Positions 28,517 to 60,981 of a stretch of 64,000 bases of DNA are shown here, piece by piece; within the stretch, counting starts at the first letter, position 1, and each line of letters opens with the position of its first letter. The stretch covers positions 1,489-65,488 of the forward strand of contig JAUNDN010000009.1 in the NCBI GenBank assembly GCA_030526045.1, read 5' to 3'. The translations under genes were made by a program, and so were the position numbers. The DNA comes from Bacillota bacterium. Its GTDB lineage: Bacteria > Bacillota > Clostridia > Lachnospirales > Lachnospiraceae. The notes under the pieces were generated by a model. That model did no database searches and was not told the origin of the DNA. It saw only the letters and a list, made by a program, of their open reading frames with translations.

Positions 28517-29590
28517 TTGAAAAAAATAATTGTAATTATCATGGTTCTTGCCCTATGTATTATGGCAATCAGCTGTGGAAATCATATGGTTTCCCATGAA
28601 GAAACAGTAAGAACACAGGAACCTGCTTCCGGCAAGAATATTGTAATCGGTTTTTCGCAGCTTGGTGCGGAATCCGATTGGAGAAGTGCCAATACAGAGT
28701 CAATGAAATCTACCTTTACCGCTGAAAATGGTTATGAAATGATTTTTGAAGATGGCCAGCAAAAGCAATCAAATCAGATTACAGCAATTCGCATGTTTAT
28801 TCAGCAGGAGGTTGACTACATTGTTCTTGCACCGGTAACGGAAAAAGGGTGGGATACGGTTCTTCAGGAAGCAAAGGATGCAGGTATTCCGGTTATCATT
28901 GTTGACCGTATGGTTGATGTATCAGATGAAAATCTGTTTACCTGCTGGGTTGGTTCGAACTTTGAGCTTGAAGGGAAAAAAGCGACAGAATGGCTTAATC
29001 AATACATAAAGAAGGAGGGTATCAGCCCCGAGGATATCCATATTGTAAATATTCAAGGGACACTCGGTGCCTCAGCACAGATTGGGCGCACGAAGGGTCT
29101 GGCGGATGCTGCAAGAGCGCATGGATGGGATCTTTTGGCAGAAGTAAACGGTGATTTTACACAGGCTAAGGGAAGAGAGGTTATGAAATCTCTCCTGACG
29201 CTTTATCATAATATTAATGTTGTTTACTGTGAAAATGACAATGAAGCCTTCGGAGCCATTGAAGCAATTGAGGCAGCAGGAGGGAAAGTTGGTTCTGACC
29301 TCAAAAATGGTGAAATTATGGTGATTTCCTTTGATGGTGTAAAAGAAAAAGCCATGAGTTATGCGTTGGAGGACAAGATTTCCTGTATTGCAGAATGCAA
29401 TCCACTTCACGGACCACGTGTAAAAGCAATTATAGATTTATTGGAATCAGGTGGAACGCCGGACAAGTTTTACTATGTAGATGAAGAGATTTTCAGTGCT
29501 AACAAAGCGGTAACAAAGCTTTCGATTGACGGAACGGAATACGATGTTACGCTGTTGACGCAAGAAATCATAGATGATCGGAATCAATAA
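28517..29590 (+). CDS. Second YtfQ-like sugar-binding lipoprotein, without its own permeases
   Basis: Lipoprotein of 357 residues with TTG start, GGGAGG site and a lipobox ending AISC. It is closer in motif content to E. coli YtfQ than the upstream paralogue. The sequences GFSQLGAESDWRSANTES, EDGQQKQSNQI, APVTEKGWDTVLQEAKDAG and IQGTLGASAQIGRTKG all match galactofuranose-binding landmarks, including the Trp-Arg and Gln-rich ligand positions. No ATPase or permease follows. It may deliver substrate to the upstream importer or present ligand to the adjacent chemoreceptor, with which it is probably co-transcribed. The role is inferred from context. Confidence 0.85.
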   Translation: MKKIIVIIMVLALCIMAISCGNHMVSHEETVRTQEPASGKNIVIGFSQLGAESDWRSANTESMKSTFTAENGYEMIFEDGQQKQSNQITAIRMFIQQEVDYIVLAPVTEKGWDTVLQEAKDAGIPVIIVDRMVDVSDENLFTCWVGSNFELEGKKATEWLNQYIKKEGISPEDIHIVNIQGTLGASAQIGRTKGLADAARAHGWDLLAEVNGDFTQAKGREVMKSLLTLYHNINVVYCENDNEAFGAIEAIEAAGGKVGSDLKNGEIMVISFDGVKEKAMSYALEDKISCIAECNPLHGPRVKAIIDLLESGGTPDKFYYVDEEIFSANKAVTKLSIDGTEYDVTLLTQEIIDDRNQ

Positions 29591-29598
29591 TTTTTCTG

Positions 29599-29627
29599 TT
29601 GACAGACAAAGTATATTTTGATAAGTT
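29599..29627 (+). promoter_or_regulatory. Candidate promoter of the ABC-F leader transcript
   Basis: A perfect -35 TTGACA (29599-29604) is followed 17 bases later by a weak -10 TAAGTT (29622-29627). Transcription would begin near 29634, a few bases before the Shine-Dalgarno of the leader peptide. Confidence 0.55.
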
Positions 29628-29658
29628 AATGGTATTTCATAGCAAAGGAGATGTGCGA

Positions 29659-29685
29659 ATGTTTATTTTTTCTACCCGAAAGTAA
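29659..29685 (+). CDS. Short leader peptide controlling the ABC-F gene
   Basis: The eight-codon frame MFIFSTRK has AAAGGAG (29644-29650) at an ideal 8-base spacing from its ATG. It lies about 25 bases after the predicted transcription start and 218 bases before the ABC-F start codon. Its coding sequence includes TTTTTTCTAC (29666-29675), which can pair with GTAGAAGAAA (29702-29711). A ribosome stalled on the leader would mask that arm. This matches the general scheme of antibiotic-induced attenuation. The peptide itself matches no leader I can name. Confidence 0.65.
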   Translation: MFIFSTRK

Positions 29686-29858
29686 ATTGAATAACTTGTG
29701 TGTAGAAGAAATAGCTGACTCCTTTTCGATCACGCTTGTTGCAAAAGCTTGGCAAGCGGAATGTAATATGAACATAGATTAATAGATTATGTGATTCATT
29801 CGTCCTGATAGGATTATGTTGAATTTTAGGGTGCAGAGATTTACTTCTGCACTTTTTT
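29666..29858 (+). promoter_or_regulatory. Transcription attenuator with alternative hairpins before the ABC-F gene
   Basis: Terminator: GTGCAGA (29831-29837) pairs with TCTGCAC (29846-29852), followed by six T. Antiterminator: GTGTAGAAG (29700-29708) pairs with CTTCTGCAC (29844-29852), nine pairs including one G-U, destroying the terminator. Anti-antiterminator: TTTTTTCTAC inside the leader frame (29666-29675) pairs with GTAGAAGAAA (29702-29711). The three pairings are mutually exclusive, so leader translation or stalling can decide readthrough. A further CGCTTG/CAAGCG stem (29733-29758) lies between. The roughly 310-base gap before the ABC-F gene is thus mostly regulatory. Confidence 0.7.
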
Positions 29859-29903
29859 GCATGCATTTTTAAAAGCATGCTCCGTTTGAGAGGAGGAATG
29901 TGT

Positions 29904-31409
29904 ATGTCACAGATCAGTGTAAATCATTTAACTTTTTATTATGAAGGAAGCTATGACAATATATTTGAAGATGTTTCGTTTCAGATCGATACGAACTGGA
30001 AGCTTGGATTCATTGCACGAAACGGGAAAGGAAAAACGACTTTTTTAAAGCTGCTTATGGGACAGTATGAATATAAGGGCAGTATCAGTGCATCAGTTGT
30101 CTTTGATTATTTCCCGTTTGAGGTTAAAAATAAAGCTCGGAATACCGTTGACATTATTGAGGAAATCGACCCGGATTATGAATTCTGGAAAATCTGCCGG
30201 GAGCTTAATTGCCTAAAAGTAGATGTGGATGTGCTGTACAGGCCCTTTGATACCTTAAGTAACGGAGAGCAGACGAAGGTCATGCTTGCCATTTTATTTT
30301 CCAGGGAAAATCATTTTCTCTTAATTGATGAGCCTACCAATCATCTGGATATGGAGACCAGACAGCTTTTGAAGGATTACTTAAATGCAAAGAAGGGATT
30401 TATTTTGGTTTCACATGATAGGAGCTTTATGGATGGCTGCGTAGATCATGTGCTTGTGATAAACAGAGCAGACATTGAAGTACAGCAGGGAAATTTCAGT
30501 TCCTGGAAGGAAAACAGGGAAAGGCAGGATGCTTTTGAGCTATCGGAAAATGAGAAGCTGAAAAAGGATATTAAGAGGTTGACAGAGTCTGCCAGAGAGG
30601 CCAGGCAGTGGGCGGATAAGGTAGAGAGTAACAAGATCGGATTCAGACAGACGAAATATGAGAAAAGTCTCGACCTACGATGTTATCTTGGAGAAAAATC
30701 CAGGCGGATGCAGATGCGGCGTAAAAATCTGGAACGCAGGCAGCAGCGGGAGATTGAGGAAAAATCTGCTCTTTTAAAAAACCTGGAAACTGTTGAGGAT
30801 TTAAAGATCATACCCCTTACGCATTATAAGGAAAAGCTTATTGTAATGGAAGATTGTGCAATCGGATACGGAGAAAAGACTGTCATACAGAATTTCAATA
30901 TGGAGGTGAAGCAGGGGGAGCGCGTCTTTTTACAGGGGCCAAACGGCTGTGGGAAATCCAGCATTATCAAAGCAATTCTTGAGCAGGCCGGAGCGGAGAA
31001 AACAAAATTGCTCAAAACAGGAAGAATCGAACTTCCAAGTCAGCTTATTATTTCCTATTGTTCACAGGATACCTCTATGTTGAAGGGAACAATCAAGGAG
31101 TATGCTGCAGAAAATAATATTGATGTAACTCTGTTAATGGCACTTCTCAGAAAGCTGGATTTTTCAAGGGTTCAGTTTGAAAAGAGAATTGAGGATTACA
31201 GCGGCGGCCAGAAGAAAAAATTGCTTCTTGCTGGAAGTCTTTGCAGACAGGCACATTTATACATCTGGGATGAACCTTTTAATTTTATTGATGTTTTTTC
31301 CAGAATGCAGATAGAAGAGTTGATTTTAAAGTTTAAACCCACTATGATTATGGTAGAGCACGATAGGGCTTTTGTGGAGAATACTGCCACAAAAATAATC
31401 AGCATATAG
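29904..31409 (+). CDS. ABC-F ribosome-protection ATPase, Lsa/CplR-like
   Basis: Soluble protein of about 501 residues with two ABC domains and no membrane segment. It is the ABC-F type that binds the ribosomal E site and dislodges antibiotics. Domain 1 has Walker A ARNGKGKTT, signature LSNGEQTK and Walker B LLIDEPTNHLD. Domain 2 has GPNGCGKSS, YSGGQKKK and IWDEPFNFID. The interdomain linker (about 190-295) is charged and helical. N-terminal wording such as DTNWKLGFIARNG resembles Lsa-family proteins, which protect against lincosamides, streptogramin A and pleuromutilins. ATG 29904 is chosen because AGGAGG is 7 bases upstream. The preceding attenuator supports an inducible resistance role. The exact drug profile is unknown. 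Confidence 0.88.
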   Translation: MSQISVNHLTFYYEGSYDNIFEDVSFQIDTNWKLGFIARNGKGKTTFLKLLMGQYEYKGSISASVVFDYFPFEVKNKARNTVDIIEEIDPDYEFWKICRELNCLKVDVDVLYRPFDTLSNGEQTKVMLAILFSRENHFLLIDEPTNHLDMETRQLLKDYLNAKKGFILVSHDRSFMDGCVDHVLVINRADIEVQQGNFSSWKENRERQDAFELSENEKLKKDIKRLTESAREARQWADKVESNKIGFRQTKYEKSLDLRCYLGEKSRRMQMRRKNLERRQQREIEEKSALLKNLETVEDLKIIPLTHYKEKLIVMEDCAIGYGEKTVIQNFNMEVKQGERVFLQGPNGCGKSSIIKAILEQAGAEKTKLLKTGRIELPSQLIISYCSQDTSMLKGTIKEYAAENNIDVTLLMALLRKLDFSRVQFEKRIEDYSGGQKKKLLLAGSLCRQAHLYIWDEPFNFIDVFSRMQIEELILKFKPTMIMVEHDRAFVENTATKIISI

Positions 31410-60689: not shown

Positions 60690-60981
60690 AAAATAAAAGT
60701 CCCTGACAGAATTTACTTCTGTCAAGGACGAATTTACGATCCGCGGTGCCACCTTGATTTACAGCTGTGCTGTACGCTTAACGGGATACTATCATATCCC
60801 TGGCAACTGACGTATGCCTTCACGTCGCAGAATACTAAGAATCATGTATAGAATTCGGTTCCCTGCGCCCTCCGCGGTCCATTTGATGACTTGTTTTCCA
60901 CCCGTTCTCAGCAACTCGGGCTCTCTGTGGGAGCATCATCACCTTTATCTCCGCTTCAACGGTTTAAAGTGATATCAGATT
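60690..60981 (-). promoter_or_regulatory. tRNA-Trp T-box riboswitch of the trp operon
   Basis: The antisense-strand leader carries the T-box core AAGGTGGCACCGCGG at 60755-60741. Its bulge UGGC would pair with a GCCA acceptor end, matching a tRNA with discriminator G as in tRNA-Trp. Stem I contains CAGAGAGCCC and GTTGCTGAGAACGGG elements, followed by a specifier codon UGG read at 60881-60879. The terminator is GTCCTTGACAGAA paired with TTCTGTCAGGGAC (60729-60699), followed by a U-rich run to about 60691. Uncharged tRNA-Trp would favour antitermination and trp expression. Confidence 0.93.

Follow-up and report, generated by a model that had tools for sequence, protein, structure and literature searches.

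A putative ribosome-sensing transcription attenuator upstream of an Lsa-like ABC-F gene in Lachnospiraceae, with start-stop relatives around Paenibacillus

The DNA analysed here, called the window throughout, is a stretch of 64,000 nucleotides (nt) from contig JAUNDN010000009.1 of a bacterium of the Lachnospiraceae (assembly GCA_030526045.1). It carries a gene for an ABC-F ribosome-protection protein, preceded by a 271-nt leader that may act as a transcription attenuator sensing arrested ribosomes. An earlier, sequence-only reading had placed a promoter, a Shine-Dalgarno sequence, a short upstream open reading frame (uORF) encoding MFIFSTRK and an intrinsic terminator in this leader, and direct reading finds all four where it had put them. 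The features are as follows.

29599-29604 and 29622-29627, + strand: promoter, TTGACA and TAAGTT with a 17-nt spacer, read from the sequence
29644-29650, + strand: Shine-Dalgarno sequence of the uORF, AAAGGAG, 8 nt from the ATG
29659-29685, + strand: uORF MFIFSTRK, the ribosome landing site; ATG at 29659, 8 codons, stop at 29683-29685
29666-29675, + strand: strand 1 (U), the uORF codons able to pair with the antiterminator strand, uORF nt +8 to +17
29700-29714, + strand: strand 2 (AT), the antiterminator strand, whose partners are strand 1 (OFF) or the terminator loop and 3' arm (ON)
29719-29725, + strand: CTCCTTT, which pairs with the uORF Shine-Dalgarno sequence (29644-29650) in the predicted OFF fold
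29797-29806, + strand: CATTCGTCCT, for which 9/10 pairing is possible with the ABC-F ribosome-binding site at 29891-29900
29829-29838, + strand: strand 3, the terminator 5' arm, from reading of the sequence and a hairpin search
29839-29854, + strand: strand 4, the terminator loop and 3' arm, with the core CTTCTGCAC at 29844-29852
29853-29858, + strand: U run of the terminator (T run in DNA)
29891-29896, + strand: ABC-F Shine-Dalgarno sequence AGGAGG, with the gene ATG at 29904
29904-31409, + strand: Lsa-like ABC-F ribosome-protection protein, 501 amino acids

The promoter, as read from the sequence, is sigma-70-like, and the TGA immediately 5' of TAAGTT gives it an extended -10-like element. 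The antiterminator box of the leader is GTGTAGAAGAAA, with GTGTAGAAG at 29700-29708, and the stem of the terminator has the arms GGGTGCAGAG and CTTCTGCAC. Between the terminator and the ABC-F ribosome-binding site, at 29859-29880, lies a perfect GCATGC/GCATGC hairpin.

By its sequence, the gene is Lsa-like rather than CplR-like, so that only the first half of the label Lsa/CplR-like, given to it earlier, holds. Among the models listed, NCBIfam ABCF_Lsa_all scored best (679.7 bits over the full length, below its curated cut-off of 750) and ribo_prot_ABC_F gave 449.9 bits (cut-off 380), whereas ABCF_CplR gave only 171.3 bits against a cut-off of 780. The nearest solved chain is Lsa(A) (7nhk, E 3.9e-124). 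The host genome, of 2.68 Mb, has one such gene, and a homologue at E <= 1e-100 is present in 82 of 200 genomes of the window's family, its own genome counted. A wider contig search gave 116 relatives, from which 80 named loci were kept; many are titled Lachnospiraceae or other Clostridia, and some Paenibacillus.

Both pairings that had been claimed for the leader, 29700-29708 with 29844-29852 and 29666-29675 with 29702-29711, are present, each with one G-U pair; strand 1 is similar to strand 4, as strand 2 is to strand 3. The further claim that these two pairings and the terminator are all mutually exclusive does not stand. In the predicted window fold, the anti-antiterminator (29666-29675:29702-29711) and the terminator occur at once, and the antiterminator alone excludes each of them. 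Of 200 shuffles of the 271-nt leader, 197 fold less well than the real sequence (z -2.51).

We examined 153 regions upstream of Lsa-like genes, near-copies included; loci from the genome searches had at least 45% identity and at least 80 nt upstream, and 40 further loci and 4 plasmid loci were added. A uORF of the form M-x(2-4)-S-C-x(0-1)-stop, preceded by a Shine-Dalgarno sequence, was found in 60 of these regions, whereas 50 dinucleotide shuffles gave 0.46 on average and at most 2, and the 153 reverse complements none. Related forms, defined only once they had been seen, occur in 19 more (MFxFST.., MFxFSA.., MFIILLNN, MIIISR, MMFISR, MIIITC and MIIITW). In the clade of the window, the uORF stands at a like place in all 12 loci, 11 of the MFxFS[TA] form and one deviant (L044, MFIILLNN), with a common antiterminator box and a similar terminator, a recurrence that goes beyond chance; TTGACA is found at a like place in 10 of the 12. 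The 12 loci with the window leader type fall into one clade (support 99) of a 113-protein tree, near proteins with MIIISC and MIIITC leaders, and leader types cluster on the tree (26 changes against a shuffled mean of 54.5, with 0/200 shuffles as low).

A terminator-like hairpin was found for 78 of the 79 uORF loci (not for L116; a few, such as that of L152, are doubtful), and 61 loci were left once near-copies had been removed. In 56 of these 61, one spacer element is the best partner of both the uORF codons and the terminator loop and 3' arm. Only 3 or fewer of 60 shuffled spacers paired as well with the 3' arm and loop in 42 of the 61 loci, and with the uORF in 41. Pairing of the antiterminator with the terminator 5' arm, tried as a candidate by the same measure, was rejected: it reached this level in 3 of 61 loci, which is chance level. 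Spacers also scored higher with the 3' arm of their own locus than with those of other loci (20.5 vs 17.0, 0/5000 permutations), as they did with the uORF (17.6 vs 16.2, 0/5000) and, by less, with the 5' arm (14.5 vs 13.8, 95/5000), although these permutation tests are inflated by shared ancestry. An antiterminator heptamer could be anchored in 54 of the 56 loci; all 7 of its positions pair with the 3' arm in 47, and the same number is reached for the uORF. Its compensating changes are T-A/C-G and A-T/G-C exchanges with G-U intermediates at positions 2, 4 and 5. Within the window clade alone, 92% of cells are paired, against 47-76% when slid, and the covariation score was reached by 19 of 500 shuffles. 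Comparison shows four strands that co-vary across genera and a constraint at the level of codons.

The effect of a ribosome was modelled by keeping the nucleotides under a start-codon ribosome, about -15 to +17, unpaired in a transcript whose last nucleotide was that of the 3' arm, for the 56 loci with a shared spacer element. Unmasked, the terminator forms in 56/56. When the mask is on and only 4, 6 or 8 nt of the 3' arm have emerged, the antiterminator outnumbers the terminator in pairs in 54, 52 and 51 of the 56, respectively, and with the full 3' arm it scores above the terminator in 25. In a shuffle control on the 41 loci with leaders shorter than 330 nt, the real spacers gave the switch in 41/41 with 6 nt out, versus 66/205 for shuffled spacers, and in 22/41 versus 6/205 with the full arm. 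For the window itself, the ribosome mask takes the terminator from 0.92 to 0.00; the sequence-only reading had named a fold with the leader region masked as a check. The switch on masking is thus a predicted one, and the results suggest that the loop and first bases of the 3' arm are captured before the 5' arm closes.

The locus has the parts of a uORF-controlled ABC-F attenuator: a promoter, a Shine-Dalgarno sequence and a short uORF upstream of an ARE-ABCF gene and, by comparison and fold prediction, an anti-antiterminator overlapping the uORF and an antiterminator excluding the terminator. We consider it likely, from comparison and folding, that the leader controls transcription by attenuation, in response to ribosomes that pleuromutilin, lincosamide or streptogramin A drugs arrest at initiation. 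With no drug, the uORF would be translated and vacated, strand 1 would pair with strand 2 and strand 3 with strand 4, and transcription would stop (OFF). A drug of one of these classes would hold a ribosome at the presumed stall site, the uORF start codon, and its footprint, to about +16, would cover strand 1 and leave strand 2 free. Strand 2 would then capture the terminator loop together with the first bases of strand 4 on their exit from the RNA polymerase, presumably before strand 3 closes the hairpin. The terminator would not form, and the Lsa-like gene would be transcribed and so induced.

Several observations weigh against this reading. Under the filter used, 53 of the 153 regions have none of the uORF forms; 8 of these fit on inspection (L020, L086, L053 and L083, and the start-stop loci L061, L063, L064 and L160, of which more below), L020 and L086 carrying a fitting leader that failed the Shine-Dalgarno filter. 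One locus, L085, keeps the terminator and has lost the uORF, and TTGACA is absent from 2 of the 12 window-clade loci, L041 and L044. Co-variation among related leaders, which the sequence-only reading had also proposed as a check, is seen across genera and is weak within the window clade alone, where a single pair has double changes, a number matched by 387 of 500 shuffles. In addition, the masked equilibrium with the full arm favours the antiterminator at only 25 of the 56 loci, the terminator staying above 0.5 in 32, and most loci would therefore need kinetic capture. Finally, the stretch at 29797-29806 pairs 9/10 with 29891-29900 in the predicted window fold too, a point taken up below. At L085, a close relative of L079 (leader MFHFSCR), a frame of about 60 codons, read by eye, fills the leader.

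The sequence-only reading had called this a leader-peptide attenuator. Its ribosome-dependent antitermination is backed by comparison and folding; the role given to the peptide was over-read, because codon choice, position and start-stop relatives point to the codons acting as RNA. The Ser-Cys codons are TCY-TGC in all 47 non-redundant loci (TCT-TGC in 41 and TCC-TGC in 6), while in the downstream genes TCY makes up 40% of Ser codons and TGC 56% of Cys codons. Nucleotides +13 to +18 read TCYTGC in 46 of 46 aligned uORFs, with +4 to +11 variable, and the core begins at +13 in 59 of 61 loci, a regularity that partly reflects the search for in-frame peptides. From these comparisons, it looks as if RNA rather than peptide is conserved in the leader family.

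In some relatives, hardly any peptide would be made. In 104 genomes of the family around the Paenibacillus genome of L061 (G200), an Lsa-like gene is present in 86. Upstream regions were taken for 90 of the 101 matches listed and for five earlier loci, 95 in all, L185 being a duplicate of L061. A Shine-Dalgarno sequence, an AUG and the core are present in 80 of the 95, of which 67 stop right after the AUG and 13 encode a short peptide; no such leader was found in the other 15 regions. Removal of near-copies left 64 leaders, 52 start-stop (with TAA in 33, TAG in 14 and TGA in 5) and 12 with short peptides, among them MYNFSC, MYISC and MNILSC. The Shine-Dalgarno sequence lies 11-13 nt from the AUG in most start-stop leaders, compared with 8 nt in the window. 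Among 59 non-redundant cases, folding predicts the terminator in all 59 unmasked and the antiterminator in 55 once a ribosome is masked; no more than 2 of 40 shuffles were as good for the 3' arm in 56, for the uORF side in 45 and for the 5' arm in 4. The uORF thus appears, from sequence and folding, to have shrunk to a putative AUG-stop in the Paenibacillus relatives with the RNA switch kept. Alternatively, there may be an RNA-level preference for T-purine-purine after the ATG.

These data bear on the possibility that the leader peptide is itself the sensor, as a drug-dependent arrest peptide of the ErmCL/MsrDL kind with residues in the exit tunnel that stall the ribosome. Leaders of that kind are defined by conserved arrest residues independent of codon choice, and in the sequence comparison the present family lacks such residues. 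The Ser-Cys (or Ser-Thr/Ala) residues of the coding leaders are indeed conserved and in frame, as would be expected of an arrest peptide, but the search had asked for in-frame peptides; residues 2-4 vary, the constraint lies at the codon level, the compensating changes are located in the antiterminator and terminator, and codon 2 is a stop in the 52 start-stop leaders. We regard an arrest peptide as unlikely, while a contribution of the peptide in coding leaders may exist. From the comparison, no more than a ribosome halted at the start codon would seem to be needed, the codons acting as RNA.

The start-stop leader is not confined to Lsa-like genes. The pattern ATG-T-purine-purine, which is not strictly a stop, was searched for in the same 104 genomes and gave 72 places in 53 genomes, against 9 for the reversed pattern. 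Beyond the earlier Lsa starts, 19 leader-like places were picked by eye, and about 8 other off-Lsa matches without the look of a leader were set aside. In 17 of the 19, the long frame that follows codes for a Cfr-like protein of 343-364 amino acids; of the remaining two, L323 precedes a second Lsa-like gene, and L337 neither an Lsa-like nor a Cfr-like one. Three of the 17 Cfr-like proteins were scanned and pass the Cfr equivalog cut-off of 550 with 623-639 bits, and the other 14 were assigned by close sequence similarity. All 17 leaders (14 non-redundant) show 3'-arm pairing, and 16 switch on masking in prediction; 5'-arm pairing, the rejected alternative, was found in 0/17. At L328 and L336, an Lsa-like gene comes after the Cfr-like one. 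Since the same leader stands on two unrelated gene families whose known members, according to plasmid annotations, counter overlapping drug classes, these loci give an independent hint at the inducer. With somewhat less assurance than for the window mechanism, we favour the wider view that such leaders are widespread peptide-independent sensors, 3'-arm-capturing attenuators that would read only a ribosome held at an AUG, reduced to a start-stop around Paenibacillus, where one leader would run a regulon of Lsa-type ABC-F and Cfr-family methyltransferase genes against the same drug classes.

Mainly translational attenuation, in which a hairpin hides the ABC-F ribosome-binding site until a stalled ribosome frees it, would account for the pairing of CATTCGTCCT with that site, and both cplR and vmlR, discussed below, use the two layers. 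Pairing between the ribosome-binding site and the spacer falls within the best 3 of 60 shuffles in 11 of 61 loci, where about 3 are expected. However, 10 of 60 shuffles equal the pairing seen in the window, which is therefore not beyond chance; over the 61 loci such pairing is far less regular than pairing with the terminator 3' arm (11 vs 42), and the distance from terminator to start codon ranges from 21 to 239 nt. As the main mechanism this is improbable, and as a further layer in the window leader, like those of vmlR and cplR, it is possible from the fold. It is very improbable that the hairpin just ends transcription of the upstream sugar-binding protein gene, as an ordinary intergenic terminator next to an unrelated promoter, with no regulation. 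That gene ends at 29590, the terminator lying about 240 nt further on, but the promoter precedes both uORF and terminator, and across genera the terminator co-varies with strands 1 and 2. An attenuator of amino-acid starvation reading cysteine or phenylalanine codons is less probable still: most coding relatives have a Cys codon and the window has two Phe codons, but the window clade is without a Cys codon, the start-stop relatives have no sense codon after Met, and the downstream genes are ribosome-protection genes.

Attenuators of this general kind are known. The vmlR leader of Bacillus subtilis has a uORF, MIN, whose translation is reported to be essential for induction by lincomycin; attenuation is uORF-dependent, and the uORF start has been toeprinted (PMC9226507). 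It shares with the window leader a uORF inside an anti-antiterminator hairpin, an antiterminator, an intrinsic terminator and an ABC-F gene, but differs in its uORF and gene subfamily; pausing and ppGpp layers also belong to vmlR. The cplR leader of Clostridioides difficile, with the uORF MRI, is induced by retapamulin and lincomycin (PMC10201436). It likewise has a 5' hairpin over the uORF, a terminator and an antiterminator; its terminator, however, also hides its Shine-Dalgarno sequence, and its ABC-F protein is of another subfamily (the window protein scores 171 vs 680 bits with the CplR and Lsa models). The LsaA leader stands before the same ABC-F family as in the window but has a different uORF consensus, MAGN (PMC10201436). 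Start-stop uORFs have been described for eukaryotes (PMC5972666). In Arabidopsis, the AUG-stop uORF of NIP5;1 responds to boron and acts on translation and mRNA decay (cited in PMC5972666); it shares with the Paenibacillus relatives a start-stop frame as a ribosome-based sensor, has no bearing on the 8-codon uORF of the window, and differs in being a plant system for boron without transcription attenuation. The AUGUG overlaps of Escherichia coli (PMC9841429) are a different matter. In the parts covered of uORF4u (PMC10219788) and of PMC8632094, the present leader family is not mentioned, and in the open-licence literature we found nothing on this family, on its leader strings in a relevant sense or on a bacterial start-stop attenuator. 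What appears to be new within this known kind of attenuator is the leader family, with its 3'-arm geometry, apparent independence of the peptide and start-stop version on two genes.

The leaders of inducible resistance genes are commonly interpreted as peptides by which drugs are sensed in the exit tunnel. The present family suggests that, where a drug acts at the first peptide bond, a bare AUG and an RNA switch may suffice, which predicts which drugs can and cannot induce. The proposed geometry, with the antiterminator seizing the loop and 3' arm, is unlike that of the usual antiterminator, which takes the 5' arm, and the start-stop leaders would place two unrelated mechanisms of resistance under the control of one sensor. 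The plasmid-borne lsa(E) of enterococci carries a leader of the present family, MYNFSC, so that inducibility becomes testable there. A 441-nt stretch with this leader matched 111 plasmid records, 109 at 99% identity or more, 102 of these covering at least 80% of it. Three genomes of the window's family (L143, L145 and L146) and an Enterococcus faecium plasmid with lsa(E) (L161) have the same 600 nt before the Lsa gene, letter for letter, which points to recent transfer.

Other leaders were compared in the same way. A three-codon uORF, M[RK]x, in 21 of the 153 regions, is a second Lsa leader type. Its 3'-arm pairing was positive in 4/16 loci and its 5'-arm pairing in 2/16, and a recurring GTTGCCAAAA-like box (L012, L033, L037, L132 and others) is, to judge by eye, a possible partner of the end of the terminator 5' arm and of the loop. 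The lsa(B)-like leaders gave 0/2 for either terminator arm, and of 14 CplR-like loci 12 were used, a terminator being found in 5. A search for the Ser-Cys pattern through the 200 genomes of the window's family gave 22 places in 19 genomes (2 for the reversed control); 9 are at Lsa genes, and the other 13, considered as leaders of other genes, lie inside open frames of at least 120 codons and were rejected, being probably chance matches.

No start-stop or Ser-Cys leader was found in the 382, 420, 100 and 140 nt upstream of mobile cfr, cfr(B), cfr(C) and cfr(D), respectively (one record each). Upstream of plasmid cfr(B) and cfr (L342 and L343) are frames that begin alike in DNA (by eye MLTVFRIL) and are unlike the start-stop leader. 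Among 391 genomes of the class Clostridia, 2 have a Cfr-family gene at E <= 1e-130, and the preceding 512 nt showed neither a start-stop nor a Ser-Cys leader; in both (L340 and L341), an Lsa-like gene, identified by eye from its end, stops a short way upstream. At L337, a start-stop leader and a terminator precede a next frame of at least 100 codons that resembles, by eye, ribosomal protein L4. An Rfam scan of the window gave no gathering-score leader or riboswitch at the ABC-F locus; its sole match is a T-box leader at 60721-60968 on the - strand, with 93.6 bits against a gathering cut-off of 93.

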